Made by a program: the position numbers and the translations under genes. 44,138 nt of DNA from positions 1 through 44,138 of the forward strand of contig CALWKO010000009.1 of assembly GCA_944381275.1 (NCBI GenBank). Reading direction: 5' to 3'. This document shows positions 6,759 through 40,840 of this stretch, one piece after another. Within the stretch, counting starts at the first letter, position 1. Each line of letters begins with the position of its first letter. The notes beneath the pieces were generated by a model, which was not told the origin of the DNA, did no database searches, and saw only the letters and a list, made by a program, of their open reading frames with translations. Source of the DNA: an uncultured Clostridia bacterium (GTDB lineage: Bacteria > Bacillota > Clostridia > Christensenellales > UBA3700).

Positions 6759-6766
6759 AACTCCTC

Positions 6767-12993: not shown

Positions 12994-13057
12994 AATTTCC
13001 CTCCTAAGGGGGGAAGGCAAACGCCGAAAAAAACATGTCTTCGCCCCTTATGATAAT

Positions 13058-13248: not shown

Positions 13249-13330
13249 AAAAAATCGGGGCAAGCTTACCCCCCCCCATAACTTGTTATTTAATTTAACT
13301 AAAATTTTAGCCCCAATCGTAAAAAAACAG

Positions 13331-13359
13331 TTGACACGGCATATTTTATATGTTACCAT
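13331..13359 (+). promoter_or_regulatory. promoter of the SipW/TasA-like locus
   Basis: TTGACA, 17 bp and TACCAT. Transcription would start near 13366, giving a leader of about 400 bases before the first clear gene at 13767. No other good plus-strand promoter is seen ahead of that gene, although GTGTATATTATC and GTGTATATAAT near 13690-13711 could hold a second, weaker one. Confidence 0.65.
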
Positions 13360-13365
13360 TATGGC

Positions 13366-16839: not shown

Positions 16840-16845
16840 TAACTC

Positions 16846-16861
16846 TCGCACACATGTGCGA
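16846..16861 (+). terminator. short stem-loop before fibre subunit 2
   Basis: TCGCACA and TGTGCGA form a perfect 7-bp stem with a two-base centre, directly upstream of the ribosome binding site of the next gene. There is no T-run, so it is more likely a message-stabilising or processing stem than a full terminator. Confidence 0.4.
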
Positions 16862-16878
16862 AAGGGAGGAGAAATAAA

Positions 16879-17544: not shown

Positions 17545-17559
17545 TAGGAGGAAATATAT

Positions 17560-18210
17560 ATGACTCGCACTAAAAAAACAGCTTTGCTCGTTTCCGCTTT
17601 GGCGATCGTGCTGTGTGCGGCGGTGATCGTGGGCGCGACCTATGCCCTCTTCACCGACGGCGAAGAATACGCGATCGGCGTGAATACCGGTAAGATAGAC
17701 GTCTCCGGCACCCTCACCCTCAAATCCGCCTGGTCGGAAGCTCAAACCACCGGAGTTAGGGATGAAGAAACTATCTCCGGCGATTCTGTAACCGTAGCTC
17801 AGGGCGGCACCGTCACCATAGCCGAAGGCAATACCCTTACTTTTGATAAGATGTCCTTGGGCGACGGCGCAAAAGTGAAGCTCACCTTTGCAAACAGCAG
17901 CTCCATAAACATGAAGTATCGCGTGACCCTCTCCGTCAAAAACGAAGGCTCACCCAGCGACTTTTTGAAGAACAACCTCACCGTAAAGGTGGGTAACGGC
18001 GAAGCGCAGACGGCTTTTGGCGCAGATTCCGATACCTTCGTGATCGTGAATTGGACGAGCGTGACCGCTTCTTCCGCAATAGATGAAGTTACCTTTGAAG
18101 TGGCTCTGCCCTGGAGCGCGCTTGAAGCAAGCGAAGCACTTTCCGACGCGCAATCCATTTCCCTTGTAGTAAAGATGGAAGCCGTGCAGAATAACGCTTA
18201 TACAGACTAA
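17560..18210 (+). CDS. TasA-like secreted protein, stand-alone head module
   Basis: A 216-residue SipW-type substrate (LSALAIVLCAAVIVGAT at the end of the signal helix, then YALFTDG). The mature region shares a specific module with the two giant proteins downstream: GKIDVSGTLTLKSAWSE, a VTIAEGNTLTFDKMSLGDGA segment, KYRVTLSVKNEG, FLKNNLTVKVGNG and VALPWSA, closing with MEAVQNNAYTD. It is therefore the free form of the head that the next two proteins fuse to beta-helix domains. It may be a fibre subunit that co-polymerises with those heads (inference). GGAGGAAA precedes the ATG, 15 bases after the previous stop. Confidence 0.8.
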   Translation: MTRTKKTALLVSALAIVLCAAVIVGATYALFTDGEEYAIGVNTGKIDVSGTLTLKSAWSEAQTTGVRDEETISGDSVTVAQGGTVTIAEGNTLTFDKMSLGDGAKVKLTFANSSSINMKYRVTLSVKNEGSPSDFLKNNLTVKVGNGEAQTAFGADSDTFVIVNWTSVTASSAIDEVTFEVALPWSALEASEALSDAQSISLVVKMEAVQNNAYTD

Positions 18211-18216
18211 ACCCGT

Positions 18217-18241
18217 GTGCGGCGCGGACTCTGCGCCGCAC
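18217..18241 (+). terminator. strong stem-loop between short subunits and giant fibre proteins
   Basis: GTGCGGCGC-GGACTCT-GCGCCGCAC is a perfect 9-bp GC-rich stem. It is followed by a second small hairpin GCCGC-GCAA-GCGGC (about 18252-18265). No T-run follows on the plus strand, so it may act as an RNA-stability or partial-termination element that sets the ratio of short subunits to giant proteins. Confidence 0.5.
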
Positions 18242-18323
18242 CAAAAAAAGCGCCGCGCAAGCGGCCCCAAATTTGAAAATAAAGTTTTGCCCTTCCCCCT
18301 AGGAGAGCAAAGAGAGGAATAAA

Positions 18324-20540
18324 ATGACTAAATCAAGCAAGAAAACGGCTATAGCAGCGGCAATCCTCGTCGTGGTGATGTGCGCGGCGATAATTGCGGG
18401 CGCTACGTTCGCGCTGTTTACTTCCACCGTCACAAACGACATCAACGTGAACACCGGTGACATAAAGGTGACCGGCTCGCTCACCTTGGACGAAGCTTGG
18501 TCGCAGAGTGAAGAGGGCGCAAAAACGAATGCGACCGTAAGCGGCAATTCCGCCACCGTACAGCAGGGCGGCACCGTTTCCGTAAACTCCGAAACGGGCG
18601 CGATAACTTTTAACAAGATCTCCTTGGGCGACGGCGCCAAGTTCACCCTTTCCTTGAACATCGTCAACTCCATTAGGGCTAAATACGCCGTGGAATTGCA
18701 AGTTGCAGAGGGGGCGGATTCCACTTTCTTGAAGGACAACTTGAAGGTCGCCTTCGGCGATAGCGAAGCCGCCCTTTCGGAAAACGCCGCCACCGTGAGC
18801 GATTGGAAGGTTTTGGAGATCAACGAGAGCGGCACGCAGGTGGACATCACCTTTACCATATCCCTCCCCTGGACTTCCACGGGCATTGACGCAGAGGGCG
18901 CGCAATCCATCAAATTGCAGCTCGTGACCAAGGCGGTTCAGGCGAACGCTTCCAGCGGCAAGGACTTTGAAACGGGCGACGGCACCGGTTACGACACCAT
19001 CACCGAAGCCATTCAAAACGCAAAGGACGGCGACACGGTGATGATCAATGCAAACAACATCACAATGCCCTCTCTTGAGGAGTTAACCGCTGCCACGGAG
19101 GGAAAGAAGATAACTATATCCGGCAAAGGCAGCGATTCTTCCACGGGAACTAAAATTACCGGCACTTCCAATGTATACGTTCCCGCCAATGTAACGCTCG
19201 AAAATGTTTACTCGCAAAAGATGATTCAAGCCGTTGAAGGCTGCACCTTGCGCAATGTAAAGATGAATAATAAGATAAACATTCGAGCAAATACCGCGGC
19301 GACCAACGCCCTTTCCGATGACGACACAACGAACGCCGTCGTTATCGATAGTTGCACCTTTACTTCTGTAAACCTAAGCGCTAACGGAGTGAGCGCAATA
19401 GTACGCAACTGCACCCTTACGGTTACCGGCTGCCCTGTTTCTGCTTCCAATTCTTCCCGTGTAGTGTTGGAAAATTGCTCTTTTTCTCTTTCCTCGGGCA
19501 GTAAGAATGTAATAGAAGCGTATAGCAACTCCACTGTTGTTGCCAAGGACAGCACTTTTACCCTTTCGTCGAAAATATCGCTCAGCAAGCCCGGCAGCGT
19601 TATCAAATTAAGCGGCGGATCGCAAGGCTTTTTTGAAAACTGCACCATAAACAACATAAACAATCTGAGCGGAAACGGCAACAGCATCTTCGTTACGGAA
19701 GGCGCAGACATCACCATGAATAATTGCACGGTGAACAGCACCCCCGCGGCATTGGCTGTTTATAACGAAAACGAAAATGAAACGCCTACCGCAACCCTCA
19801 CGAATACGAACATGACCGTAACAGGTGAAAATCTACTTGCGGTAACAGTCGGCGTGCATACGAATGAATTCAATGTCAAACCCGAGCAAACCCGCCCCGC
19901 AGGCAGCCCCGGCAAACTTGTTATGGATGGCGGCAGTATTATCGCCACAGGTACGGACGCTTCCGCGATATATGCGTCCAACTCCTCTTATGTGGAGCTG
20001 AATAACGCAACCGTCACTTCCGACAGCTTTGCTTTCAGCACCAACAACGTATACGGCGGCGAAACCGAATTGACGATAACCGGCTCTTCCGCTATCACTT
20101 CCAATAAGGAAGTTGCCCTCTACTTGCCCGCTTTGAAGACCTTTACCATGACGGGCGGCACCGTCAAGGGCGCGGCGGCCATGGACGTGCGCTTGGGCAC
20201 GATTGAAATCACGGGCGGCGAGCTCATCTCCACCGCAACGGATAATAAAGTGCTCCAATATGTGAGCGGCGAAGTTTCCGCAGACGGCGTGAACGGCGGT
20301 AGCAATCCTGACGGTTCTACCGTGATAGTAAACAGCTGCATATACAAGCTGGACGGCGAAATCGTGCCTTTGAACATCACCATAAGCGACGATGTGGCCA
20401 TAACTTCCGCTACAAGGGATGAAATCCACGTTTACGATTGGAATCAATTCGAACAAGACGTGACCACTTCCTTTGGCAATCATGCCGCCGTTAAGTACGA
20501 ACTCAAGAGCGGCACCACTCCCGAACTTGTGGTGGCATAA
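18324..20540 (+). CDS. giant SipW-type protein 1: TasA-like head fused to right-handed beta-helix
   Basis: A 738-residue secreted protein. Residues 1-32 are a SipW-type signal segment (VVMCAAIIAGATFALF), and about 33-212 are the TasA-like head shared with the preceding gene (GDIKVTGSLTLDEAWSQ, ISLGDGAKFTLSL, ISLPWTSTG, KAVQANASS). From about 215 to 700 it is a parallel beta-helix. The entry is pectate-lyase-like (YDTITEAIQNAKDGDTVMI), then about 20-residue coils rich in Asn, Ser, Thr and Gly such as VVIDSCTFTSVNLSANG and VVLENCSFSLSSGS. The end is a cap (VIVNSCIYKLDGE.. to VYDWNQF) that recurs in the next protein. No LPXTG or membrane anchor, so retention on the cell would rely on the head joining a fibre. 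Enzymatic activity is not indicated. Confidence 0.8.
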   Translation: MTKSSKKTAIAAAILVVVMCAAIIAGATFALFTSTVTNDINVNTGDIKVTGSLTLDEAWSQSEEGAKTNATVSGNSATVQQGGTVSVNSETGAITFNKISLGDGAKFTLSLNIVNSIRAKYAVELQVAEGADSTFLKDNLKVAFGDSEAALSENAATVSDWKVLEINESGTQVDITFTISLPWTSTGIDAEGAQSIKLQLVTKAVQANASSGKDFETGDGTGYDTITEAIQNAKDGDTVMINANNITMPSLEELTAATEGKKITISGKGSDSSTGTKITGTSNVYVPANVTLENVYSQKMIQAVEGCTLRNVKMNNKINIRANTAATNALSDDDTTNAVVIDSCTFTSVNLSANGVSAIVRNCTLTVTGCPVSASNSSRVVLENCSFSLSSGSKNVIEAYSNSTVVAKDSTFTLSSKISLSKPGSVIKLSGGSQGFFENCTINNINNLSGNGNSIFVTEGADITMNNCTVNSTPAALAVYNENENETPTATLTNTNMTVTGENLLAVTVGVHTNEFNVKPEQTRPAGSPGKLVMDGGSIIATGTDASAIYASNSSYVELNNATVTSDSFAFSTNNVYGGETELTITGSSAITSNKEVALYLPALKTFTMTGGTVKGAAAMDVRLGTIEITGGELISTATDNKVLQYVSGEVSADGVNGGSNPDGSTVIVNSCIYKLDGEIVPLNITISDDVAITSATRDEIHVYDWNQFEQDVTTSFGNHAAVKYELKSGTTPELVVA

Positions 20541-20569
20541 CAACGAAAAAAGTTTTGAGGTAAATAAAA

Positions 20570-23500
20570 ATGAGTAAGACAAGTCGCAGAAATGCAATAG
20601 TGGTTTCCGTCTTAATAGTCGCCCTGTGCGCGGCTGTTATAGGCGGCGCAACGTTTGCCCTCTATTCTGCCGGCGACACGCACAATATCACCGTAACTTC
20701 GGGCGATATTCAGCTTTCTTCCACCGTGAAGCTCACTTCCGCGTGGACGACGGCGCAGAGCGGAGAGAAGACGGACGCGAATGTAACGGATAACAAGACG
20801 GCTGCCCTCTCCACCGGCGGCAAAGTGAGCGTGGACGAAGGCGGCAACATCACATTCGACAGGATCGCCCTCGGCGACGGCGCAACATTTGAAGTGACCC
20901 TTTCCATGGCGTACACGATAAATATGAAGTACTCCTTGGCGCTTTTGGCGGAAGAATCAGACTCCTTCCTGTGCGATAATTTGCAAATCAAGGTAGGCGA
21001 TAAGACTTCCACCATGCAGGATTCTTATGTGTATATAGTGGATTGGACGGAGTCCGCAATAGACGATAAGGACGTTACCGAAAAATCCGTAACCGTATCC
21101 TTCGACATATCCCTGCCTTGGACGGCACAGGCGAGTGCTCCTAGCAGCGCAAGCTCGATTAAGCTCTCCTTGGTGGCTAGCGGCGTACAGACCAACGCCC
21201 TTACGGGTATATCCAACGCGGGCGGCGGCAATTACGGCACCCTTGAAGACGCCGTTGTGGGCGCAAACGCGGACGACACCATCATCATCGGCGAGGACAT
21301 GGACGAAACCGTTTGGACGGCGGAAGCCGCTGCCGCAGCCGCGGATAAAGACTTGGTGGTGATAGGCTCGAAGAACGCTTCCCTCACAGCAGAAGAAGGC
21401 GCGGTTATCCCCTCGAATGTTACTTTGCGCAATTTGAACGTAAATTCCGCTTTGAATTTGCAATCGGGCGCAAGCCTTGAAGACGTGACCGTTAACGGCA
21501 GCGTTACGGTGAACGGCGCTTCTTCCCGCGCAGCGGTAATGAGCCTTGCGAACGAATCGCAAGTGAGCGGCGGTAAATCCGTCTTCAACGGCGTGACCTT
21601 TAAGGAAGGGCTCGTGCTCAACAACGCAGACGTGACCATAACAAACAGCACGATAGACGATTATAACGGCACCGCCGTATACGTTACGGGCGGCAGCCTC
21701 ACCCTGGGTGACGGCAACTATTTCTCCGCCGTTGGTCCGAACAGCGTTATAGCGGCGTTCGGCGCAACCGTAACCATAACGGGCGGCGAATATGTGGCTG
21801 CCGCGGATATGGCGACCAATACCGGCTTGAACTATCAGGACGGCAAAGCCCTCGCCCTTTACAGCAACTCTTCCGCCACGATAAGCGGCGGCAAGCTGGA
21901 CTCCCGCGCGAACAACCAGACGGTGCAGCTAGGCTCCTTTGATGAGGATAACCCCGAAACGAATACTTCCGCTTCCCTCACCTTTACGGGCGGCGAGATA
22001 ACTTCGTATAACGTGGGCATTGCCATCTTCAATAGCTCTTCCTTCGTTATGGACGGCGGCAGCATTGCCGCGGACGCCTATGCGGTGAGCTCCAACAACC
22101 TTGCGGGAAGCGACATCTTCACGATAGATATAAACGGCGGCAGCATCACTTCTCCCGAAGTCTGCGCGGCGTTCTATTTGCCCGCTCCCGGCACCCTCAC
22201 ATTGGATAATTGCACCGTGACCGCGGGCGCGATCATCGACGCGCTCTTCGGCGATATCACCATAGGAAGCGGCGTAACCCTCAAATCCACCGCAACGAGC
22301 AGCCATTGGGGCGGTTCCAATGTGGGCATGGCGGAAGGCTCCGCAATCATCCTTAATACTTCCAAATATACCGTAAAGCCCGCAGGCACCGCCGGCAGCC
22401 TTACCCTCGCCGTGGCAGACGGCGCGAATATCACCTCCGCAACTGGCAGGATATTCGGCGTTTATAATTGGACAAATGCCGACAAGGAAGACGTTTCCTT
22501 AAACTTCGGCTCCTTTGCAGGCGACAAGGACGCAATCGCCTACTACAACGCGGCAAGCGCAACTTCCGTCACCCGCATGCGCGTTATCCCCGCCGCCGTT
22601 GACGGCAAATACGGCGCCGTCGGATACGCAACCTTGGCGGAGGCAAGCACGGCGGGAGTGACCAAGGCGGAGATAATCTATGACTTGAACGATACGTCCT
22701 CTTCTTCCGTCAACGTGACGATTTGGGAAGGCGTAAACGTGACGGGCGCAAATGTGGGCTCCTTGACCGCCCGCGGCGCCAACACCCTTGAAAATGTGAC
22801 CGCGGCAGAAAATTCCACGCTCGAAAGCTCCTCTGCTACTTATACCGTTGCATACTGCGCTTTTAATAAGGGCGTAACAATCAGCGGCAACGCAAACGTA
22901 ACGGGCGGCGCTTTTGGCAGCACTTATAACTGCCCCGTAAAAGTGGACAACGGCAGCACCGTTACTTTTGATAAAGTGACTATGGCGTTGAGCTCTACTC
23001 CCGCAATTCAGGTGCTGGATTCTTCCAACGTAACCATAACGGGAAGCACTCTTTCCACAATCACGGCGAATGTGCTTACCATAGATAACTCCACGGTTAC
23101 GGTGAGCGGCACTACGATGACGTCCTCATTCACCTATGGCGGCAATTATAACGTTATAACGGTAAAAAACTACGGCGAAGTAAATCTCTCCGGATGCACA
23201 ATTTCCACAACCGCTACCCCCGCTACTGTTGCGGGTGCGGCAATACATGCAAGCACAAGTTCTTCCGTAACCTTGAGCGAAACCTCTGTTACGGCGAAAA
23301 CCTACGGCATTGCCGTTTTTGCAAATTGCAGTGCAACTATAACCGATAGCCAGGTAAACGCCAATCTCGCGCTCTATGTGTACGGCGATAACGCCGAAAT
23401 CGTGGTGGACGGCAGTAACAGCGCTATAACTTCCACCGACCCTTCTTCCGACGGTGTAGCCGTGCAGGCCGGCGCTTACACTAGTATAAGCTCCTACGGC

Positions 23501-24112
23501 GGCGGTTCCTTCACCTTGAAAAACGGCAAGGTTGAAGGCGCAATATTAGCCGCGGGCACCGGTGAAATAACCATAAATGGTGGCAGTGTTCATTCTTCTG
23601 CTTTGGCGGTTTCCAACAACAACACAACAGCCGTCAACACTTCCATCACCATAAACGGCGGTATTATCGAAGCGGACGGCAGCGCAGCCATCTATCTGCC
23701 CGGTCAAGGCTCCTTTACCATGACGGGCGGCAGTGTTACCGGCAACTCCGCAATAGACGCGCGCCTTGGCAGTGTGACCATCACGGGCGGCACGCTTACC
23801 GCAAAATATAACGACGGTACCCCCTTGGGTAAAGGCGACGTGCAATATGTCACCGGCATGGCATTCTCCGACGGCAGCGTTATCGTGGTCAACTCCGGTA
23901 TTTACAAAAATATCGCGGGCGAACTTGTAGACTTGACCGTAACCATCGGCAACGATGTGGTCATGAACAAGACGGCGGATAACGCCGACTATGTGCGCCA
24001 CTACAATTACGGCAAGAACGAGCAGAAAGCCACCGTCACCATGAACGCAAGCTATAATGTAGCTTACTACACCTTGGTAGACGGCACTCCTACACTGCAG
24101 CCGCAAGCCTAA
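20570..24112 (+). CDS. giant SipW-type protein 2: TasA-like head with two tandem beta-helix domains
   Basis: A 1180-residue relative of the preceding protein. The signal segment ends ALCAAVIGGATFALYS, the TasA-like head extends to about residue 215 (ending in VASGVQTNALTG), and two beta-helix domains follow at about 220-680 and 695-1165. Each helix starts with a GYGTL/AVGYATL-type entry and ends with the cap seen in protein 1 (NTSKYTVKPAG..VYNW; NSGIYKNIAGE..HYNYGKNE), so the second helix is an internal duplication. Coils carry repeats such as TITGGEYVAA, TINGGSIT and TMTGGSVTGN, typical of polymorphic surface proteins. No anchor is visible. GAGGT precedes the ATG, 29 bases after the previous stop, and a strong terminator follows. 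The likely role is a large adhesin or fibre-tip protein; the ligand is unknown. Confidence 0.8.
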   Translation: MSKTSRRNAIVVSVLIVALCAAVIGGATFALYSAGDTHNITVTSGDIQLSSTVKLTSAWTTAQSGEKTDANVTDNKTAALSTGGKVSVDEGGNITFDRIALGDGATFEVTLSMAYTINMKYSLALLAEESDSFLCDNLQIKVGDKTSTMQDSYVYIVDWTESAIDDKDVTEKSVTVSFDISLPWTAQASAPSSASSIKLSLVASGVQTNALTGISNAGGGNYGTLEDAVVGANADDTIIIGEDMDETVWTAEAAAAAADKDLVVIGSKNASLTAEEGAVIPSNVTLRNLNVNSALNLQSGASLEDVTVNGSVTVNGASSRAAVMSLANESQVSGGKSVFNGVTFKEGLVLNNADVTITNSTIDDYNGTAVYVTGGSLTLGDGNYFSAVGPNSVIAAFGATVTITGGEYVAAADMATNTGLNYQDGKALALYSNSSATISGGKLDSRANNQTVQLGSFDEDNPETNTSASLTFTGGEITSYNVGIAIFNSSSFVMDGGSIAADAYAVSSNNLAGSDIFTIDINGGSITSPEVCAAFYLPAPGTLTLDNCTVTAGAIIDALFGDITIGSGVTLKSTATSSHWGGSNVGMAEGSAIILNTSKYTVKPAGTAGSLTLAVADGANITSATGRIFGVYNWTNADKEDVSLNFGSFAGDKDAIAYYNAASATSVTRMRVIPAAVDGKYGAVGYATLAEASTAGVTKAEIIYDLNDTSSSSVNVTIWEGVNVTGANVGSLTARGANTLENVTAAENSTLESSSATYTVAYCAFNKGVTISGNANVTGGAFGSTYNCPVKVDNGSTVTFDKVTMALSSTPAIQVLDSSNVTITGSTLSTITANVLTIDNSTVTVSGTTMTSSFTYGGNYNVITVKNYGEVNLSGCTISTTATPATVAGAAIHASTSSSVTLSETSVTAKTYGIAVFANCSATITDSQVNANLALYVYGDNAEIVVDGSNSAITSTDPSSDGVAVQAGAYTSISSYGGGSFTLKNGKVEGAILAAGTGEITINGGSVHSSALAVSNNNTTAVNTSITINGGIIEADGSAAIYLPGQGSFTMTGGSVTGNSAIDARLGSVTITGGTLTAKYNDGTPLGKGDVQYVTGMAFSDGSVIVVNSGIYKNIAGELVDLTVTIGNDVVMNKTADNADYVRHYNYGKNEQKATVTMNASYNVAYYTLVDGTPTLQPQA

Positions 24113-31018: not shown

Positions 31019-32218
31019 CTATTGCTGCCTTATGCCCAGCACCGCCGCGCGCTGAGAAGATTCCGTAACGGGAATGCCGTACACGGCGCGCTTGTTTTCC
31101 AGCACGGTGGTGGCGAGCATATCTTCCATGGCGTCCATGCAGCGGCTTTTTGAAAGATTGGCGGCAAAGTCCTTGTAGAGCAGAGCGCACTTCTCCTTTT
31201 CGTAAGGGTTGTCGATAAAGTAGTCTATCTTTGCGGCAAGATCGTCGCTGTCGTCCGGTGTGAACAGGTTATGGCTGCCCATGGCGAACGCCCTGGTCGC
31301 GCTCTTATCCGAATCCGCTATCACGGGAACGAGCCCGCCGCAGATGGCTTCGAGGCAGGAGATAGCCTCTATCTCCACCTTTGCCGTGTGCACATACAGG
31401 TCGGAAGAGTGGATGGTATCCACCAGCTCTTCACGGGTGAAGAACTTGAACGCGGGCGCGTTGGTCAGCCCCTCTGCCCTCTTCTTCAAGCTCTCTTCCA
31501 TAGGGCCCGCTCCGGCGAAGATGAGTTGGATGTCCTTTTCGTGCGCGCTCTTTTTCACCGCGTCTATCAGCACGCCCTGGTCTTTTTCGTGCGAATACCT
31601 GCCCGTGCAGAGGATGACGAACTTGCCGTCCGCCCTCTCCTTCCTCTCGCCTTGGAAGAAGGCTTCGTCCACGCCGTTTGAGATGACGTAGCCGTGCGTG
31701 CTCTTTTTCACGCTCTTTTCAAACTCGTTTTTGATGAACACGGTGGGGTAATGCACGCAGTCGCACTTGCCGTAAAGCACGCGGAAGAAGCGGCGGTAGA
31801 TGGCTTTGTTCAGCGCCTTGCTGTTCATCAGCCCCAAATGGTTGGTCACGTTCTCCGCCTGGCAATGGAAGCCCGCCGATACGGGAATGCCCAAACCGCG
31901 GGCGATGTCCACCGCCCTGCGCGAGAGGACGAAGGGCATCATGCAGTGCACTATGTCCGCGCCGTCTATCGCCGCATAGAGCAGGTCGTCGTCCGCCTTG
32001 GCGAGCACCACGTCGTTCTTCTTCACATACTTGTTGAAGGGTCCGAAGCTGCGCGTGGAGGTGATGTAGTAGCCTTCCTGCCCCATCTTGCTCTTGTCCG
32101 GGCACACCACCTTTACGGTGTGACCCTTTGCTTTAAGCGATTCTATCAAATTGGCTGCCGCCACGGCGGTGCCGTTTTTCCTTGAGAGAGGTATATCACA
32201 TATTATCGTAACTTTCAT
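31019..32218 (-). CDS. glycosyltransferase family 4, diacylglycerol glucosyltransferase-like
   Basis: A 399-residue GT-B enzyme that should transfer a sugar from a nucleotide sugar to a lipid acceptor at the inner membrane face. The N-terminal domain begins MKVTIICDIPLSRKNGTAVAA. The C-terminal donor domain has FVILCTGRYSHEKDQ, IFAGAGPMEESLKKRA and the GT4 motif VEIEAISCLEAICGGLVPVIAD, a pattern I associate with glycolipid-forming GT4 enzymes of Firmicutes. AAGGAG precedes the ATG. It has its own promoter, preceded by six 11-bp-phased repeats of PhoP-box type, so induction by a Pho-like regulator is likely. Phosphate-limited bacteria often replace phospholipids with glycolipids, which fits but is inference. 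Confidence 0.82.
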   Translation of the reverse strand: MKVTIICDIPLSRKNGTAVAAANLIESLKAKGHTVKVVCPDKSKMGQEGYYITSTRSFGPFNKYVKKNDVVLAKADDDLLYAAIDGADIVHCMMPFVLSRRAVDIARGLGIPVSAGFHCQAENVTNHLGLMNSKALNKAIYRRFFRVLYGKCDCVHYPTVFIKNEFEKSVKKSTHGYVISNGVDEAFFQGERKERADGKFVILCTGRYSHEKDQGVLIDAVKKSAHEKDIQLIFAGAGPMEESLKKRAEGLTNAPAFKFFTREELVDTIHSSDLYVHTAKVEIEAISCLEAICGGLVPVIADSDKSATRAFAMGSHNLFTPDDSDDLAAKIDYFIDNPYEKEKCALLYKDFAANLSKSRCMDAMEDMLATTVLENKRAVYGIPVTESSQRAAVLGIRQQ

Positions 32219-32275: not shown

Positions 32276-32335
32276 GTAACGCGTCGGTAACGCAACGGTT
32301 AAATTCGCGTTAAATAATGGTAAATTGATGGTTTT
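32276..32335 (-). promoter_or_regulatory. six PhoP/PhoB-type repeats at 11-bp spacing upstream of the GT4 promoter
   Basis: On the plus strand GTAAC (32276), GTAAC (32287), GTTAA (32298), GTTAA (32309), GTAAA (32320) and GTTTT (32331) begin exactly 11 bp apart. Read toward the gene they are TTTAC/TTAAC/GTTAC repeats separated by six bases. They end next to the -35 box, the classic place for OmpR/PhoB-class activators that bind tandem half-sites. Confidence 0.75.
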
Positions 32336-32346
32336 TGGGGAACTAT

Positions 32347-33084
32347 TTAGAAAATATAAGGGTAAATGCTAGCGTAGAAGTCGACTGTCTCAGCCGGCGA
32401 CGTCTCCTTCACCAATTTATACATATATGGATTTCTTCTTTTTATAACGGCAGATAGAAACGCTTTATCACCCCATAACGGACGCTCTACGTCTATCGCC
32501 TTTTTTAATATGTCTCCGCAAAATATGAAGTTAGCCATATTGCAATCGGTAAAAATAAATACTGGTTCTTCCGCTTGCGGCAGGGAGTCTATCCTATCAT
32601 AGCATGCCGCGCGCTCATATTTTGGCATTTTTTCGACAATACTGTATAAAAACTCTCTCCAAGATGAATATCTTGCCGTTCCATCCTTTTGCATCATTCC
32701 GAATTGCTTGCCTTTAATATTCGCGGCTCCCTGCATCAAATGCAGCGCTTGGGATAAAATATATCGTTCGCTGTCCTTTTTATAGTATATGTTGCCTTCG
32801 ACTTTTTCTTCTTCCAACACGGCATGATTTTTCAAAAACATGCCTTTGGGATAGACGTTAAAAATTTCGGCAACAGGGAGATTATGTCTTCTTAAAATAT
32901 CGTGCGCGGCTTGTTCGATAAAAAACGATTCGTCAGCATACTCGTTGTTATAAGCGCTTTTGGCAATCTTTATAATGCGCCCATCTTTTTCAAAAACATA
33001 ATGCTTTTCACTATAGGCAAAATAATTGTAGCCTATATTACAAAGCTCCTCATAATACGACTCGCTCTGCGGATTATTTATCAT
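32347..33084 (-). CDS. kinase-like phosphotransferase (choline/aminoglycoside kinase fold)
   Basis: A 245-residue protein with the layout of small-molecule kinases of the protein-kinase-like fold. The ATP-side Lys is probably in GRIIKIAKSAYN. The catalytic loop is VFIFTDCNMANFIFCGD, which corresponds to the HxDxxxxN motif with Thr-Asp, and the metal-binding Asp is in KAIDVERPLWGDKA. It probably phosphorylates a sugar, aminoalcohol or lipid-linked glycan. It is the last gene of the AT-rich glycan operon and overlaps the dehydrogenase stop by 11 bases. It resembles the kinase domain inside the polyenzyme of the same operon in length and position of motifs only; close kinship is not clear. Confidence 0.65.
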   Translation of the reverse strand: MINNPQSESYYEELCNIGYNYFAYSEKHYVFEKDGRIIKIAKSAYNNEYADESFFIEQAAHDILRRHNLPVAEIFNVYPKGMFLKNHAVLEEEKVEGNIYYKKDSERYILSQALHLMQGAANIKGKQFGMMQKDGTARYSSWREFLYSIVEKMPKYERAACYDRIDSLPQAEEPVFIFTDCNMANFIFCGDILKKAIDVERPLWGDKAFLSAVIKRRNPYMYKLVKETSPAETVDFYASIYPYIF

Positions 33085-33844
33085 TTTTTTCTCTTTTGTA
33101 AATAAGATTTTTTCTTACCACGCTTTTTAGCAAAGAACTGTCCGCACCGACGTCGTCAGACTGAGCTATTATCGAAGCGATATCTTTTGGCAGGCAACTT
33201 CCTCCGTACCCCCTGTTGTCTTCATACACAAAAGTGTGACTTTTGCCTATTCTGGGATCTGCAACCCATATTTCACGCGCCCTGTTATAGTCCGCTCCCA
33301 ACTTTTTTGCGATATCATACATCTCATTGCAAAATATGACTTTCATGGCAAGAAAGGCATTTTCCATATATTTTGCCATTTCCGCATCTTTGGCATCACT
33401 TTGATATATCTGCACATCGGAGCTTATAACATCTTGATATGCCCTGATAGCCAAATTTATCCCCTCTTTGCTCCCGCCGAACACAAGCCACCTTCTTTCT
33501 TGAAGATTTGCAAAAGGGTGCGCGGCCGTTTCTCCGTAATACTCCGGATGAAAGACGATTTCTTTATGATATTTCTCTCGCATCTCATCCGTAAAGCCAA
33601 CATACACGGTGGAACGCAAAATGATCACTTTGCATGTTGCCCACTGTATCACCTCTTCCACCGCGCTCGTGTCGCAATGCTCATCCTGCTTTTTCGGCGT
33701 GGGCACGCATACAAACACTGCGTCACATGAGTTTATTTCCTCGCGCGACCCTATGCCCAAATATTTATCGTATATCGCCGCGTCCTTAAACAAGGTGTGC
33801 ATAGCCTTTCCCACATGCCCGTATCCTACGATTCCCGTTTTCAT
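33074..33844 (-). CDS. short nucleotide-sugar/UDP-glucose 6-dehydrogenase-family protein
   Basis: A 256-residue member of the UDP-glucose/GDP-mannose dehydrogenase family, about 120-180 residues shorter than usual. The NAD-binding motif is KTGIVGYGHVGKAM. VFVCVPTPKKQDEHCD and VIILRSTVYVGFTDEM match the N-terminal domain. The central domain keeps FHPEYYGE, EMAKYMENAFLAMKVIFCNE and the catalytic Cys in NRGYGGSCLPKD. The C-terminal UDP-binding domain is missing. It may act on an unusual or protein/lipid-bound substrate, or need a partner. Its ATG overlaps the polyenzyme stop (ATGA), and AAGGAGG lies within the end of that gene. Confidence 0.85.
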   Translation of the reverse strand: MKTGIVGYGHVGKAMHTLFKDAAIYDKYLGIGSREEINSCDAVFVCVPTPKKQDEHCDTSAVEEVIQWATCKVIILRSTVYVGFTDEMREKYHKEIVFHPEYYGETAAHPFANLQERRWLVFGGSKEGINLAIRAYQDVISSDVQIYQSDAKDAEMAKYMENAFLAMKVIFCNEMYDIAKKLGADYNRAREIWVADPRIGKSHTFVYEDNRGYGGSCLPKDIASIIAQSDDVGADSSLLKSVVRKNLIYKREKNDK

Positions 33845-36800
33845 TTTTCCTCCTTATCTTTTAGCTTGCTTAAATTTTTTTCTCTCATTTTTGCTTTTTC
33901 CAAAAGTATTTTCTTTACTCTATGTTTTTCCTCTTCACCGTACTTCCCTGCTCCCTCTCTGTTTTGCGAACTAGGTTCGAAATAATATAGTACCTCCTGA
34001 ATAAAACCACATTTTTTCGCCCTTTGAACCATCGGTAGCATAAATGCAAAATCGGTATTAACATCGACATATTTCCCATCTATTTTCAAATCTTCTTCTA
34101 TGTCGATACCGTCGAACAAGTACCGCCTGAAACATTTGGGATGCAACCAAATATTGTCGCCGCCACGTTCCCATACCCTATCAAATGAATATACTCGATA
34201 ATTTTTAAGCGGCTTATCCCACCTTATGCAATTCCCGCAGGTTATCTCCACGCCTTGGGCAAATCTTTTTGTGATGATCTCTATCGCATGCTCGTTCACC
34301 AAATAGTCGTCATTGTCTACATTGATTACTATTGCATTTTTGTTTAGCACCATGTTTTGCATTGCAAATACAAAATTTTCCAACTCGCCCACATTTTCAT
34401 CGTTAAAGCACGCCTTGACTTTTGCTGCAAAATACGGATCTTTCCTTATGATCAAGCGTGCGTAATCGGCGCTTTCGTTTGTCGACGCGTCATCGATATA
34501 TACTATTTCAAAATTTTGATACGTTTGTTTTTTAATGCTATCAAACAGTCTTTTCAATTTTTCGCACGGCGTGTTGTATCCGCGTATATACAATACGACG
34601 TCGGCATATGTCTTTTCCACCCAGTCCCCGCGCGTCCCTTCCAAATTAACCTTGCCGTTCTGACCATAGAAAAATCTGCCTTTCTCCACCTGCTCCTGCA
34701 CTATCGATAAAAGATTTTTCTCCTTCTTCTTGTGGTTTTCCGGATGTATAAACCACGCCTCCGCATTGGCAAAACGCACGCTTTCCTTCTTTTGAAGTAC
34801 CAAATCCAAACTGCGGTGCCAAGGAAGTGATAACATGCCGTCTTCGATTACGTTGGGGAGAGGCAGGCGCGCCTTTAATTTTTCCAAATCAATAAGGCAC
34901 GACCGCACCTCCGTCCTATTACCGTATTGCGGATCGCCATCGCAAGAGCGGGCAACGCTCAAAGCAACCGTCACCGCCCCATCCTTTAATGCCTTTATCC
35001 CCGCTCCTAATGCGTCAGACTTTATGTAATACATAATATCGCTATCCGTTTGAAACACATACTTTGTATGGATCTTATCAAAGGCGGATATTGAAGCATA
35101 TATGCCCTGGCCGTTTACGGAGTGCCCTTGTTCCGACTCTTTATCAAAGTATTTCCGATAAAGTTTTTTCATATCCGAATCATCGTAAATAAAGAAGATT
35201 TCGTCAATCAACCCGTTCTCCTTTGCCAAAAGCAGTGCCCTTTTCAACTTTTCTTCATCATCGCAAGCGTAGCGTCTTGCTCTGCTTTCCGCTTCGGTCA
35301 TATCCGCTACCACAATCCTGTTTTCAAAACGTCCGAACCGTTCCAGCGAATTTACGATGTGGCATATGTTTTTATATATCCGCTGCCATTCCATGGGATT
35401 TGTTTTTATCAACAACGAACAATCTTCATAACATCGCGCTTTAGCTATTTTTTTGCAGGCAAAAATTATGTGTTCGGATATCGGCATAAGAGTTTCGGCA
35501 TTTACGCCGCCACCTTCAACCGCTTGTTCTATTTCTAATCCGTTCCTCGATAATAAGTTTTCGTAATACTCAATTGGGCGATGATATTCTTTGCGCACCG
35601 CGGTTCCCACCGTTAAATGCTTATAAAACATTGTGGAATGTCTATAATCCCCCGTTAAACCGTTTTTTCTAAGTTGCGTTTGCCCGGCAGTGTTAAACAG
35701 CGGATTGCATATGCTTATTACTGCTTTTCCGCCATCTTTTAAAACGGCATTTATGTCGCAAATTACATTCTGCGCCACATTATTCGGTATGCAACATAAA
35801 ACCAAATTGCAAGCAGCCAAATCATATTCTTCTTTTTTCAAGTCATCACGGACAAAAATTTTTCTTACTCGGCTATCTGCACGGGCGTTAAGTGTTTCGG
35901 TATCTAGATCGTAAACGCTTATATCGCACCTGTTTGCAAGCGCGTTTGCTATCTTGCACTTGCCCGCGCCATAATCCAAAACTTTGGCGGGATTTTCCCG
36001 CAAAATCAAGTCCTTCACAAATTCGTCATGCAAATCTTCTTTATACTTGCATTCCACAAGTTGCCTCAGCATCTCCTTCCCGTCGTCTATATATTTTGCC
36101 GTATCGCGGTATGATCTGTAAATAAGCTGCTTATACCCTTCTTCGTTCAAAAAAGGATAGCGCAACATCTCATAAACACGCGTTATGGATTTTTCTTTAC
36201 CTTCCGCGGAAATAGGCAAGAACGATTTGCCGTAATCTATAAGTTTGACTTGCCCTTGTACCACAATGAAATTGCTCTGCTTATAATTATCGAAAACAAA
36301 TCCGTTTTCCTCCGCAAATCGCAAGAGGTCAACAAAATCGGCGGTATGCCCGCCCTTATAAGGTTTAGAACGTTCATACTTATATCTCAACACCGTTTTC
36401 CCGCCCACCTCGTAAAACTCCTGCGGATAAAGATGTTTACACTTTGCAAAAGTCGGCGCGATTTGCCGTAAAAATGCAAGATTTTTTGACGATTTGAAAA
36501 AATATTTATATACATGCTCGTCATCCGTAAAAACAACACCTTCTCCCCCGTTTCCCAAATATCGCAACGAATTTGCGGGAATGTGAAAATATTTTTCCAG
36601 CTCTTTTCTGATCCGCTCATCACCTTCCGTTTGGCTTTGTATATGAAGTTTTTTGCAAAAATCTTCGTATGCGCAAAATACTTGTCCCCGCTCCGAATAA
36701 TTTTCAACCTCTTTAATATAAGCGCCTATCGCTCTTTGCGAAAAATAATCGATATATTTGCTTTCATTCAACATCGAAAGCAATCCTTGTATTCTGTAAA

Positions 36801-38703
36801 AATTTGCAATCACCTTTGTCAAGCGTGCCGAAAAATATCGGTCATACCAAAAGCAGAACTCCTCTCCCTTTGCGCCGATACCCACCTTTGCAACCGCCCT
36901 TGTAAAGGCATAGCCCATCAAATCGACAAGCAGTTTTTCCTTTTCCTTCTCATAATCAAAGCGCGTTGCTGCCCTATCATGCAACGTGGCAAACGGCGCG
37001 TTGACTATTTTATATCCTTTATTTTGCGCATACCATACCCAAAAGTAATCGCTTCTTCGGCCTATTTTATCACCTATGCGTATAGACCAATTGGGGATGG
37101 TCAGTAGCGCGCGATTGAATACTATCGTATTGCCGCCCCTTCCCGTCACTTCTTTTATTTTGGCATCCTGTAAAAACAGCTTTCTCGAAAGCGCTTTGCC
37201 GCAGAAAACATCGTCGGCGGTATACTTTGCAGCGCATTTTACGGGCAACTCCAACATATCTGTGGTTTCGTCGGACAAATCGTAATAGTAGTCCTTAAAC
37301 GACCTGGGAAAGCATTTACCGTAAAGACCCTTCTTATTGTAAAAGCAATCCAAAAGAGAAGTCCTTAGTGTGGAAAGAAGAGGCAGCGGGGGGTCCAAAG
37401 TATAATTACCCACAACCGCGTCATACTTACCGATGTATTCCCCTATCACGGCGTCTATGTCAAGCGGCTCTTCCTTATATTCTTCTCCGTCAAACATCAG
37501 TTCTTTCAGGCGCATATCTTCATCCAATACCCAAACCACTTCTTTATCTGTCGTATGTTTGTACAGATATTTTTGCAAAACAACACGCGCTACCGCCACA
37601 TCTTTAATGATCGGTTTTGAAAAATTCTCTTCCGTAACAAACTGATTGAATGCACCCCCGCGTATCTCATTCAAAATATCATCTCTTTCGATAAATTCAT
37701 ATGTGTATCCTGAATTTTGCAAAATTTCACTATACACTTCTTTGCTTTGCAAAAAATTTATAAGTATAACTATCCTCGTATTTTTTCGCTTAAGCGCCGT
37801 TATTTCTTCAAGTAATCTTGCCCCCAAAAGATAGTCCGTGGCGATAAAACCTATTACAAGTTCTCCGCAATATCTTTCTCTCGTATATCGAACTTCCGGC
37901 ATCGCCATCTTTTTATTGCCGTATAACAATTCCTCTTTTTTTATGCCAAAAAGCTTTTCCGCCCGTGTAAAAAAGGCTTCTTTCACATCTTGCGACATAT
38001 ACGCGCCGTATTTATATAAAAATTTACGCAATCCGTCTACTTTCGTTTCTTTTCTATTTGTTATTCTGCTACGAGAGTTGAACGCGTCGATTTTTACAAG
38101 ATGCCTATCTATCACCGCGTATGTCGGATTCAAAAGCATTATACGCGTAAATATATCTCTGTCTGTCGTTGAGCTCATGCTTTCATCAAATAATCCCGCT
38201 TTGAGCAGTGTGGATAACTTTACAAAAGTATTTGATCCTTGCAAGTGAGGATTCCCGCATAAAAAACTTTCCATAGTCAATTTGTGCGGAATCGAAAGTC
38301 TCTCTTGTCCCGCTTCGTTGCCATATATCAACCCGCTCACCACAAAATCTTCTCCGTTAAGCGCCCGTTCGCACTCCGCAATATATTCTTTCTCCCAAAG
38401 ATCGTCGTCATCCAGGAACGCTACATAAGTTTGATCGTAATCATGCTCCTCGAACAAATCCTTTTCCAAGATAAAGTGAATGGCGGTATTCAAAGATCCG
38501 GCATAATTATGGGTATATTTGTCCGCCAAAAAAACAGCGGAGCACTTTTCGGCAAGCTCCCTTTCCTTGTTTTTTAAGTCCTCATCAGAGTCACTTACCA
38601 CTATGATCATTTCCGGCTTTCTCGTCTGCGAAACAACGGAAAGCAATGCCTTTTCATAAAACTCGTATCTATTTTTCGTCGTTATTATTCCTATTATCTT
38701 CAT
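33841..38703 (-). CDS. six-domain polyenzyme: GT-GT-kinase-methyltransferase-GT-GT
   Basis: A 1620-residue cytoplasmic protein combining six enzyme-like domains. Residues 1-240 are a GT2 glycosyltransferase (start MKIIGIITTKNRYEFYEKAL, acidic motif FLDDDDLWE near 97). About 280-600 is a second GT-A-like domain (VWVLDEDMRL near 390; GRGGNTIVFNR near 522). About 711-850 is a kinase-like domain with glycine loop LGNGGEGVVF, catalytic loop FDNYKQSNFIVV and metal motif LIDYGKS. About 905-1085 is a SAM methyltransferase (KVLDYGAGKCKIANAL, VYDLD). About 1129-1350 is a third GT (VFQTDSDIMYY). About 1364-1580 is a GT2 (IVYIDDAST, INVDNDDYLV). A charged tail ends it. The start at 38703 overlaps the radical SAM stop (ATGA). 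It probably builds and decorates a phosphorylated, methylated surface glycan. Confidence 0.85.
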   Translation of the reverse strand: MKIIGIITTKNRYEFYEKALLSVVSQTRKPEMIIVVSDSDEDLKNKERELAEKCSAVFLADKYTHNYAGSLNTAIHFILEKDLFEEHDYDQTYVAFLDDDDLWEKEYIAECERALNGEDFVVSGLIYGNEAGQERLSIPHKLTMESFLCGNPHLQGSNTFVKLSTLLKAGLFDESMSSTTDRDIFTRIMLLNPTYAVIDRHLVKIDAFNSRSRITNRKETKVDGLRKFLYKYGAYMSQDVKEAFFTRAEKLFGIKKEELLYGNKKMAMPEVRYTRERYCGELVIGFIATDYLLGARLLEEITALKRKNTRIVILINFLQSKEVYSEILQNSGYTYEFIERDDILNEIRGGAFNQFVTEENFSKPIIKDVAVARVVLQKYLYKHTTDKEVVWVLDEDMRLKELMFDGEEYKEEPLDIDAVIGEYIGKYDAVVGNYTLDPPLPLLSTLRTSLLDCFYNKKGLYGKCFPRSFKDYYYDLSDETTDMLELPVKCAAKYTADDVFCGKALSRKLFLQDAKIKEVTGRGGNTIVFNRALLTIPNWSIRIGDKIGRRSDYFWVWYAQNKGYKIVNAPFATLHDRAATRFDYEKEKEKLLVDLMGYAFTRAVAKVGIGAKGEEFCFWYDRYFSARLTKVIANFYRIQGLLSMLNESKYIDYFSQRAIGAYIKEVENYSERGQVFCAYEDFCKKLHIQSQTEGDERIRKELEKYFHIPANSLRYLGNGGEGVVFTDDEHVYKYFFKSSKNLAFLRQIAPTFAKCKHLYPQEFYEVGGKTVLRYKYERSKPYKGGHTADFVDLLRFAEENGFVFDNYKQSNFIVVQGQVKLIDYGKSFLPISAEGKEKSITRVYEMLRYPFLNEEGYKQLIYRSYRDTAKYIDDGKEMLRQLVECKYKEDLHDEFVKDLILRENPAKVLDYGAGKCKIANALANRCDISVYDLDTETLNARADSRVRKIFVRDDLKKEEYDLAACNLVLCCIPNNVAQNVICDINAVLKDGGKAVISICNPLFNTAGQTQLRKNGLTGDYRHSTMFYKHLTVGTAVRKEYHRPIEYYENLLSRNGLEIEQAVEGGGVNAETLMPISEHIIFACKKIAKARCYEDCSLLIKTNPMEWQRIYKNICHIVNSLERFGRFENRIVVADMTEAESRARRYACDDEEKLKRALLLAKENGLIDEIFFIYDDSDMKKLYRKYFDKESEQGHSVNGQGIYASISAFDKIHTKYVFQTDSDIMYYIKSDALGAGIKALKDGAVTVALSVARSCDGDPQYGNRTEVRSCLIDLEKLKARLPLPNVIEDGMLSLPWHRSLDLVLQKKESVRFANAEAWFIHPENHKKKEKNLLSIVQEQVEKGRFFYGQNGKVNLEGTRGDWVEKTYADVVLYIRGYNTPCEKLKRLFDSIKKQTYQNFEIVYIDDASTNESADYARLIIRKDPYFAAKVKACFNDENVGELENFVFAMQNMVLNKNAIVINVDNDDYLVNEHAIEIITKRFAQGVEITCGNCIRWDKPLKNYRVYSFDRVWERGGDNIWLHPKCFRRYLFDGIDIEEDLKIDGKYVDVNTDFAFMLPMVQRAKKCGFIQEVLYYFEPSSQNREGAGKYGEEEKHRVKKILLEKAKMREKNLSKLKDKEEK

Positions 38704-39530
38704 AACAGTTGTTCCCCTGCGGTGATTTCTTTTGCAAAAGCCGTATCGCCGTCGCAAAAGAAACAAGCCTTACAATGTTTTCCGTTATACAATCCCGTCA
38801 GTTCTCTCCTAAACTCTTTCTTTTCCGTATAAACATCTATTCCGTCAAAAAAATTGCACCCATATTCTTCCATCATCGCAGCCCTGGAACAAACGTATAT
38901 TTTCCCCTTATAAAAAGACGTGCAACGTGTGATTGAGCATTCCGAAAACCTGTTTGCCCCGCGATTTTTTATATCGCCCATATCCTGCCATTTCTGCCCT
39001 ATTAAACGCACGTATTTCACGCCGTGCTCGCGTAAAATCCGCTCTGTTCTGTCCGCCCGATCCGCAAAGGCGGGATAGTCGCTTATCTGCATGACCGCCT
39101 TGCTTTCTTTTAAGCACTTCAATACTCTTTCGGAAGGTAAAACGGTGCCGTTTGTAGCGATCCTGATCGAGCGGATCTTTTTAAGTTTGTCGGCATACTT
39201 GACGATCTCACAAATTTCCGGGTGCAATAACGCTTCTCCGCCATGAATTTTCAATCTATAAAGTCTGTTTATTTTTGAAAGTAACTCGTCTAAATCGCGC
39301 TTGAATTCCTCAAACGGTATATTCTCTCCTCTTTCGAGATACGGGATCATATTCGAGCAATGTTTACATCTCAAATTACACTTCGTTGTTATAAACATTT
39401 CTATGTAAGGGACATCAAATCTCGCGAATACTTTCTGTCTTAAACAAACACTCGCTTTATTAAAAAACAGTAGCCTGCGTCTTATTTTATTTTGATAATA
39501 TAGGCACTCTTGATATACGTTTGCTTTCAT
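38700..39530 (-). CDS. radical SAM protein of the glycan operon
   Basis: A 276-residue radical SAM enzyme. The cluster motif is FITTKCNLRCKHCSN (CxxxCxxC). The glycine-rich SAM motif is KIHGGEALLHPE, followed by a TIM-barrel continuation (IRIATNGTVLPSE). A C-terminal Cys-rich part (SECSITRCTSFYKGKIYVCS; then HCKACFFCDGD) could bind an auxiliary cluster, as in SPASM-like proteins. It is the first gene of the operon, behind a near-consensus promoter. Similar proteins sit in surface-polysaccharide loci of gut Firmicutes, where their reaction is unknown. Sugar modification such as epimerisation or dehydration is one possibility, peptide maturation another. Confidence 0.85.
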   Translation of the reverse strand: MKANVYQECLYYQNKIRRRLLFFNKASVCLRQKVFARFDVPYIEMFITTKCNLRCKHCSNMIPYLERGENIPFEEFKRDLDELLSKINRLYRLKIHGGEALLHPEICEIVKYADKLKKIRSIRIATNGTVLPSERVLKCLKESKAVMQISDYPAFADRADRTERILREHGVKYVRLIGQKWQDMGDIKNRGANRFSECSITRCTSFYKGKIYVCSRAAMMEEYGCNFFDGIDVYTEKKEFRRELTGLYNGKHCKACFFCDGDTAFAKEITAGEQLL

Positions 39531-39641
39531 TTTCCCCCTTAAATTCCCGTTGCCAAATAGTTGTACATAACAGTTGCTTCAACTAAAAAGTAATTCCGGC
39601 ATACAAAAAGTTCTTTTTTTTGTACCGATTTCCTTTTCTTT

Positions 39642-39671
39642 ATATTAGACCAAAATAGTATTGCCTGTCAA
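39642..39671 (-). promoter_or_regulatory. promoter of the radical SAM/polyenzyme operon
   Basis: On the minus strand TTGACA (39671-39666), 18 bp and TAATAT (39647-39642). The leader is about 105 bases and unassigned. The near-consensus boxes suggest constitutive expression. Confidence 0.75.
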
Positions 39672-39716
39672 GGCTACCTACACCTTCAACTTATACTTGA
39701 TATTCTCCTGTACATA

Positions 39717-39758
39717 AAAATGAAAACTTTTCCTCGTTTTGGGAAAAGTTTTCATTTT
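39717..39758. terminator. bidirectional terminator after the histidine kinase gene
   Basis: AAAATGAAAACTTTTCC and its complement form a perfect 17-bp stem with an 8-base loop and T-runs on both strands. It closes the two-component operon and insulates it from the glycan operon. Confidence 0.85.
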
Positions 39759-39790
39759 GCAAACAAATTATTCTGAAAAAATGCCGCTCT

Positions 39791-40840
39791 TTACCCGGGG
39801 AGTTTTACGGTGAAGGTGCTGCCCTCGCCGAGGGTGCTTTGTACGGAGATGTCGCCGCCGCACAGCTGGACTATGCGCTTGCAGATGGAAAGTCCCAAGC
39901 CCAAGCCGCGCTTGGAGTGCGATTTATCCGTTTGATAGTATTTGTCGAAGACGCGGTCGAGGTCTTCTTTTGCAATGCCCTTGCCCGTATCGGCTACCGA
40001 GATATTCAGCGTTTTGCCCTCTTTTTTCAAGGTGACGGTTATGCTTCCGCCCTTGGGGGTGTATTTTATCGCGTTGGTCAGCAGGTTTATCCACAAATGC
40101 TGCATAAGATCGGGGTCGCCCACGAATATGGCTTCGTCCAAATCCATGGTCATGTCTATCTCCTTGCCCTGCCATTGGGAGGATAGGAGTATGCAGCAGC
40201 GGCGCAATTGCTCGTCGAGGGAATAAGCCTTCTTATCTGGGATTATCTTTTGCGTGTCCAGCTTGCTCATGAGCAGGCTGTTGCCGGCGAGGTCCGCCAA
40301 GCGGCGCGATTCGGAAGCGATGATTTCAAGGTAGGTGCGCATTTCTTCCTTACTCATCGTACCTGCGTTGTTCAAGATCATCTCCGCAAAGCCGTTGATC
40401 GAGGTGATGGGGGTGCGCAGCTCGTGCGCGTAGCCGTTGATAAAGTCGTTTTTTAACATCTCCACGCCGCAGAGTTCTTCCGCCATCTTGTTGAAGTTTT
40501 GATACAGCTCGCGGAAGGGTTGGTCCTTACCCATATCCAGGCGCACGGTGTAATCGCCGTCCGCCACCTTCTGCATGGCGTCCGAGATCTTGTCCAAATA
40601 GCGGTAGATATAGCGCGTGAACAAAAAGTTGACCAGCGTTATTAAGATGATAACGGGCACGAGCATGCTCAAAATGCCGATGAGGTGCATCTTTGTTATC
40701 ACCACGCGATACATGATCGCAATAGACGCGGCTATCGCCGCCACTATGAGCACCACGAAGAAGGTCTGCAACGTGAGCATTGCGGATATCTTCTTGCGCA
40801 TGGGCGAAAGCTTTTCTTTACTTTTTTCCTTTTTTACCAT
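39791..40840 (-). CDS. sensor histidine kinase
   Basis: A 349-residue membrane histidine kinase. Two membrane helices (about 22-44 and 53-75) leave almost no outside loop, so the signal is probably sensed in the membrane or through partners. A HAMP linker (YIYRYLDKISDAMQKVADGDYTV) follows. Phosphoacceptor His139 is in FINGYAHELRTPITSI. The ATPase domain has LWINLLTNAIKY (N box), VADTGKGIA (G1), FDKYYQTDKSHS (F box) and RGLGLGLSI (G2). GAGGTGA precedes the ATG, eight bases after the response regulator stop. It is the cognate sensor of that regulator. It differs from classic PhoR in having no PAS or sensor domain. Confidence 0.93.
   Translation of the reverse strand: MVKKEKSKEKLSPMRKKISAMLTLQTFFVVLIVAAIAASIAIMYRVVITKMHLIGILSMLVPVIILITLVNFLFTRYIYRYLDKISDAMQKVADGDYTVRLDMGKDQPFRELYQNFNKMAEELCGVEMLKNDFINGYAHELRTPITSINGFAEMILNNAGTMSKEEMRTYLEIIASESRRLADLAGNSLLMSKLDTQKIIPDKKAYSLDEQLRRCCILLSSQWQGKEIDMTMDLDEAIFVGDPDLMQHLWINLLTNAIKYTPKGGSITVTLKKEGKTLNISVADTGKGIAKEDLDRVFDKYYQTDKSHSKRGLGLGLSICKRIVQLCGGDISVQSTLGEGSTFTVKLPG

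Follow-up and report, generated by a model that had tools for sequence, protein, structure and literature searches.

A single gene of an uncultured Clostridia bacterium encodes a polypeptide of six domains (the megaenzyme), four of which are likely sugar-transferase domains, and we consider it, with a probability of about one half, to be a horizontally mobile, soluble and cytoplasmic assembly-line enzyme for a methylated glycoconjugate. The gene lies in a window of 44,138 nucleotides, i.e., the whole stretch of DNA that was analyzed, and is part of an island of four genes (Table 1). In the open-access papers searched, no account of the six-domain architecture was found and apparently this assembly enzyme has no earlier description.

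Table 1. Genes of the island and domains of the megaenzyme.
Feature	Position	Strand	Basis
Acquired island, extent	32304..39861	.	homology to congener absent between both points
Radical SAM protein, 276 aa	38700..39530	-	PF04055
Six-domain megaenzyme P0001	33841..38703	-	open frame and full-length relatives
Domain 1, GT2N, residues 1-275, GT2 glycosyltransferase, invariant LDDDD	37879..38703	-	Pfam PF00535; motif table
Domain 2, GTA2, residues 276-690, GT-A-like, LD(E/D)DM	36634..37878	-	weak GT2 profile match; model topology
Domain 3, KIN, residues 695-892, protein-kinase fold	36028..36621	-	profile matches PDB kinases; alignments
Domain 4, MT, residues 893-1085, class I SAM methyltransferase, LDYGAGK	35449..36027	-	Pfam; Foldseek; VIA
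Domain 5, GTA5, residues 1090-1345, GT-A-like candidate, TD(S/C)DI	34669..35436	-	conserved in relatives
Domain 6, GT2C, residues 1366-1600, GT2 glycosyltransferase, DNDD	33904..34608	-	PF00535 at 1376-1515; hhalign
UDP-glucose-dehydrogenase-like protein, 256 aa, N-terminal and central domains only	33074..33844	-	PF00984, PF03721
Separate APH-like kinase, 245 aa, D-C-N-M-A-N and IDIE/IDVE intact	32347..33084	-	weak PF01636; alignment

Results

Conservation and Domains of the Megaenzyme

The megaenzyme is a genuine, conserved protein and no one-off fusion. Its frame (33841-38703, minus strand, 1620 aa) runs from ATG to stop without an internal stop, and the domains follow each other from the N to the C terminus in the order GT2N, GTA2, KIN, MT, GTA5, and GT2C. 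Eleven full-length proteins, encoded by Clostridia, by Bacteroidales, and on two contigs from a viral catalogue, share this six-domain order, and since full-length orthologs with this order occur also in other phyla, a chance frame is excluded. Over the full length, identities amount to 47-62% for Clostridia, 38-39% for Bacteroidales, and 42% for the viral-catalogued relative L097. Purifying selection is indicated in all six domains by omega values of 0.08-0.19 per domain, calculated for one sequence pair. No transmembrane-like segment was detected (maximum KD19 hydropathy of 1.26) and the hydropathy profile predicts a soluble protein.

The assignment of domains 1 and 6 as GT2 glycosyltransferases is solid at the level of sequence profiles. 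PF00535 matches the megaenzyme above cut-off (85.5 bits against 23.3) in two stretches, which correspond to both ends of the protein, the motifs LDDDD (domain 1) and DNDD (domain 6) are invariant among relatives, and domain 6 aligns with GT2 by hhalign with an E value of 5e-13. For domains 2 and 5, DxD motifs and a fitting topology in models suggest a GT-A-like nature, yet neither belongs to a confident family. Neither domain gave a Pfam match or a PDB sequence match; domain 2 aligns weakly with GT2 (hhalign E value of 0.0012, probability 20%), with the DxD in register, and domain 5 gave no GT2 profile alignment. In domain 5, D.D is invariant and a low-confidence model of residues 275-1350 displays a beta-alpha-beta order, motif and secondary-structure order thus making it a GT-A candidate. 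The mean pLDDT of this model is 59 and its Foldseek and VIA matches are methyltransferases, so that the lists are informative for the methyltransferase only and not for the kinase or the GT-A domains.

Domain 4 is solidly assigned as a class I SAM methyltransferase. PF13489 and PF08241 match above cut-off, the SAM methyltransferase Pfam span covering residues 899-1058, the fold matches 3e8s over 183 residues (VIA, Z 19.7, rmsd 2.6), and the motif LDYGAGK is invariant among relatives. A pattern search of the loci with a degenerate version of the methyltransferase motif gave no match.

A kinase fold for domain 3, the domain common to all main proteins of the family, is solidly predicted. Single-sequence searches gave weak matches only, and a profile built from 14 relatives matches protein kinases of the PDB (TTK, E value of 1.5e-7). 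The G-loop, Lys733, and Asp823 are invariant among relatives. However, domain 3 lacks the catalytic HRD aspartate of a canonical kinase, which is replaced by Asn806. Asparagine occupies this position in 13 of 14 aligned sequences and also in the viral-catalogued relative L135 (i.e., 14/15), the sole aligned kinase domain with the catalytic aspartate being that of Methanosarcina, and for this reason ordinary phosphotransfer by domain 3 is doubtful.

A preliminary description of this DNA had given the continuous frame with exact coordinates, and its view of one chain that unites a kinase-fold domain, a methyltransferase domain, and four glycosyltransferase or glycosyltransferase-like domains is borne out by the full-length relatives. 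Of its domain assignments, both GT2 domains, the methyltransferase and the kinase fold stand, while domains 2 and 5 are left without a confident family. Its statement that each domain carries its key motif fails for the kinase, where the catalytic aspartate is missing; domain searches support both the methyltransferase and the kinase fold.

A Four-Gene Island at a Variable Site

Gene ends within the island overlap, by 4 bases between the radical SAM gene and the start of the megaenzyme gene, by 4 bases between the stop of the latter and the dehydrogenase-like gene, and by 11 bases between the dehydrogenase-like gene and that for the separate kinase, so that all four appear to form a single operon. 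The dehydrogenase-like protein showed no match to the C-terminal UDP-binding domain expected of a UDP-glucose 6-dehydrogenase. No exporter, lipid-carrier, or membrane gene exists among the four genes, and a polyprenyl transferase, flippase, or polymerase was found neither in the island nor as a conserved partner in relatives. The congener G002 (L122) possesses an empty site. The genes flanking the island, coding for a sensor kinase (39791-40840) and a GT4 (31019-32218), are neighbors in G002, about 440 bases apart, and homology to G002 ends near 39861 and returns at 32304. The island was therefore gained by transfer or lost in the congener, and base composition favors transfer over loss next door, with GC3 values of 0.43-0.48 within the island versus 0.73-0.78 outside.

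A candidate island promoter, TTGACA-18-TAATAT, is situated at 39642-39671 (minus strand) upstream of the radical SAM gene; the promoter scan overall was at chance level (17 against 18.0). Elsewhere in the window, five consecutive genes (16153-24112, plus strand) encode proteins of mostly growing length, from 216 to 1180 aa, with similar signal-like starts ending in ALF or ALY, possibly TasA/SipW-type surface proteins, and the region 5760-12993 (minus strand) resembles, from the protein starts only, a myo-inositol catabolism operon.

Distribution and Rearranged Relatives

Eight of 396 genomes of the order were positive, seven with full-length proteins and the eighth (G007) with a fragment only, and in a phylum-wide sample of 398 genomes the single match was the genome studied here; a shuffled control gave no matches. 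The G007 fragment (L009:2909-4558) comprises residues of about 170-738, adjoins a GmrSD-type gene and is apparently a decayed copy. Within a viral catalogue, the single protein found nothing, an alignment identified L097, a domain-5 alignment identified L135, and a kinase alignment identified none. In L097 (IMGVR_UViG_3300016722_000138, 7995-14155) the megaenzyme is fused to SLOG and accompanied by a dehydrogenase-like gene. L135 (IMGVR_UViG_3300021604_000066, 1412-11127) encodes a protein of 1964 aa in which the same six domains are followed by a C-terminal histidine phosphatase; downstream follow genes for another methyltransferase, for SLOG and DUF2924 proteins, and for a serine recombinase, and the part examined contained no phage hallmark gene. 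A protein search of a phage collection gave no match and a plasmid collection contained distant partial relatives only.

The preliminary description had proposed to look for relatives in which the domains are split. Such relatives do exist in marine bacteria and Methanosarcina, where domains are split or rearranged, whereas the domains are unsplit in Clostridia, Bacteroidales, and the two viral-catalogued contigs. The order is GT2N-GTA2-KIN in Kordia and GT2N-KIN-GTA2 in Pseudoalteromonas, and in Salinivibrio a separate gene for GT2N precedes one for another GT2-KIN-GTA5-GT2C. Methanosarcina sp. KYL-1 (L025:5029-15711) possesses KIN-GTA5-GT2C-phosphatase, with a histidine phosphatase at the end, and a GT2N fused to a dehydrogenase. 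Among relatives, GT2N also occurs alone or within other fusions. Two loci with half-size relatives comprising GT2, GT-A, and kinase domains (L024:204-5956 and L006:14986-21508) have asparagine-synthase-like and N-acetyltransferase-like genes alongside, and in Pseudoalteromonas these are joined by a GTP cyclohydrolase II-NADAR fusion on a plasmid.

Partner Genes and Genomic Surroundings

Of the 11 loci with a full-length megaenzyme, eight have SLOG cluster 4 (LOG-like) next to it or fused with it, eight have a dehydrogenase-like gene, and six have a radical SAM gene, which is situated upstream of the megaenzyme also in L007, L015, L018, L019, and L022. Homologs of the dehydrogenase-like protein occur in L007, L015-L019, L022, and L097, and in L025 as a fusion to GT2. 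An epimerase, encoded separately in L021 and fused in L020, is the NAD-epimerase counterpart of the dehydrogenase-like neighbor in Bacteroidales. SLOG is absent from the island of the window; the idea that this genome lacks the gene was dropped, since a homolog (55% identical) is encoded at C3:41455-42003 in a different context.

Downstream of the megaenzyme in L007, L015, L018, L019, and L022 follows a gene whose 637-aa product contains the RNxxxH motif twice, invariant in both places; this protein is absent here. Its family (633-637 aa; L018:13841-15754, L022:13841-15754, L132:9580-11487, L133:9335-11236) had no Pfam match above cut-off, the motif suggests a HEPN-like protein, and the AlphaFold model has a mean pLDDT of 44. 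In two genomes the RNxxxH protein occurs without the megaenzyme, paired with unknown genes whose products measure about 270 and 260 aa; it was therefore rejected as an essential part and is an accessory.

Some surroundings recall mobility and conflict. In the phage-like contig L097 the megaenzyme directly follows an AccI-type restriction-modification system and has phage genes (integrase, antirepressor, and replication initiator) on its other side, and serine recombinases adjoin L022 and L135. AbiEi/AbiEii are found beside L015 and L020, and the type I specificity subunit HsdS near L019. With 26 AbiEii genes in 81 genomes, the chance of one per given 20-kb stretch is well under 1%; the defense-gene neighbors, a small sample picked after the fact, are suggestive. 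PADLOC models gave no match for the megaenzyme, and the radical SAM ortholog matched the viperin models of PADLOC weakly (E value of 4e-10) along its radical SAM core, which is no surprise for members of one superfamily.

Discussion

In the proposed assembly line, the dehydrogenase-like neighbor, or the NAD-epimerase in Bacteroidales, would prepare a donor or oxidize the product, and the four glycosyltransferase or glycosyltransferase-like stations would put sugars onto an acceptor in the cytoplasm. Methylation of the product would fall to domain 4, and its tailoring to the radical SAM protein. The kinase-fold station would bind ATP, its role probably being regulatory, scaffolding or non-canonical, and any phosphorylation might be due to the separate kinase (32347-33084), whose catalytic residues are intact, or to another partner. 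We infer the substrates, the order of steps, the cytoplasmic product, and a role in conflict or host modification that benefits the mobile element or the host. A cytoplasmic product is suggested by the soluble proteins, by an island devoid of carrier and export genes, and by the spread, as a whole or in parts, over bacteria and an archaeon with differing envelopes; even so, the product could arrive at the surface through host exporters or carriers encoded elsewhere. The conserved six-domain order, the purifying selection in each domain, the lack of transmembrane-like segments, the neighbors of donor metabolism (UDPGDH-like and epimerase), the low-GC island with its empty site in the congener, the sporadic spread, the phage genes or serine recombinases around L097, L022, and L135, and the SLOG partners argue for the assembly line. 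The lack of a confident family for domains 2 and 5 and the relatives with half of the domains only count against it.

Multimodule glycosyltransferase enzymes are already known and the megaenzyme is a further variant, whose role is possibly novel. In Klebsiella pneumoniae O7, the single polypeptide ORF6 carries methyltransferase, kinase, and coiled-coil regions together with two GT2 modules, and in WbbB of Klebsiella O12 the terminator and both polymerase glycosyltransferases are fused (PMC11231755). The claim of the preliminary description that such activities reside on separate proteins in O-antigen systems is thus not general. Like the megaenzyme, O7 ORF6 unites GT2 modules, kinase, and methyltransferase on one polypeptide, but there the methyltransferase precedes the kinase, the aspartate is active (D441), and a coiled-coil ruler, ABC export, and an O-antigen are involved; two GT2 modules contrast with four glycosyltransferase or glycosyltransferase-like domains in the megaenzyme, and partners and mobility differ as well. 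WbdD with WbdA from E. coli O9a also pairs a kinase and a methyltransferase with glycosyltransferases, though as two proteins with an active kinase in a membrane-associated complex for LPS export (PMC3482155). O12 WbbB and similar polymerases share several glycosyltransferase modules per chain (PMC11231755), whereas they lack a kinase/methyltransferase pair of the megaenzyme type and serve a surface O antigen. Nucleotide-centered conflict systems (PMC7824862, PMC7159879) resemble the megaenzyme loci in SLOG or NADAR partners and in mobile or phage contexts, although no described member with a megaenzyme was found in the literature searched.

Since kinase and methyltransferase adjoin glycosyltransferases in one chain and O7 ORF6 offers a precedent (PMC11231755), an O-antigen-type polymerase with a WbdD-like methyl-phosphate chain terminator might be considered, which would agree with the capping role proposed in the preliminary description. 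We judge it improbable, and the capping role is unsupported. Judged by sequence, neither the active kinase that accompanies the methyltransferase in WbdD/O7-type terminators nor, among the four island genes, a linked ABC exporter was found; the catalytic aspartate is Asn, a lipid-carrier enzyme is missing from the island, the order methyltransferase-kinase of O7 is reversed, and the host belongs to a Clostridia group and is no O-antigen bacterium. A crude search detected no coiled-coil ruler, the longest helix of the low-confidence 275-1350 model having 32 residues and the heptad scan peaking inside domain 6. An assembly artefact or a decaying fusion of unrelated genes, which the incomplete draft state of the source genome might bring to mind, is refuted by the same architecture across independent assemblies and phyla with every domain constrained, and its probability is practically nil. 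Modification of a surface glycan, where a decorated side chain on a capsule or teichoic-like polymer alters phage receptors or antigenicity by means of the carrier and export of the host, appears rather unlikely to us. Glycosyltransferases, dehydrogenase, and epimerase are typical for loci of surface polysaccharides, glycosyltransferase clusters that modify capsules are known from some phages (PMC7824862), and the island is sporadic, mobile and at times phage-borne; however, the lack of a polyprenyl transferase, flippase, polymerase, and exporter in the island and among the conserved partners of relatives, the occurrence of relatives or parts in hosts whose envelopes differ greatly, one of them an archaeon, and the SLOG and radical SAM partners, atypical for surface loci, argue against it.

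A function in anti-phage or inter-element conflict, in which a modified nucleotide or glycan signals, poisons or marks and SLOG, or in some genomes the RNxxxH protein, acts as sensor or effector, is possible and we entertain it tentatively; it is compatible with the assembly line and does not exclude it. SLOG partners, members of a superfamily of nucleotide-centered conflicts (PMC7824862), the RNxxxH motifs of the 637-aa partner, and the AbiEi/AbiEii, HsdS, AccI-type, and GmrSD neighbors (the last beside the G007 fragment) speak for it. Nevertheless, PADLOC has no match for the megaenzyme, the 637-aa protein occurs also without it and is absent here, the neighbors are few and were not pre-specified, and integration sites are common to islands of any kind. 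That glycosyl assembly line and SLOG protein form a novel type of mobile conflict system, producing a glycosylated, methylated nucleotide-like molecule or mark by which phages and islands would control or protect hosts, is a speculative and, in our opinion, unlikely extension.

The mobile island, the SLOG partner found in relatives, and the relatives whose domains are split or re-ordered add to what the preliminary description contained. The latter form a natural gradation between separate domains and a machine of six domains, and the conserved Asn for Asp in a kinase fold is a clean case for distinguishing pseudokinase from unusual catalysis. For the assembly-line enzyme, a whole soluble sugar-assembly line can move as a single gene across phyla, also within phage, and its product, if truly cytoplasmic, would place glyco-chemistry beyond the cell envelope, possibly in the conflict between phage and host.
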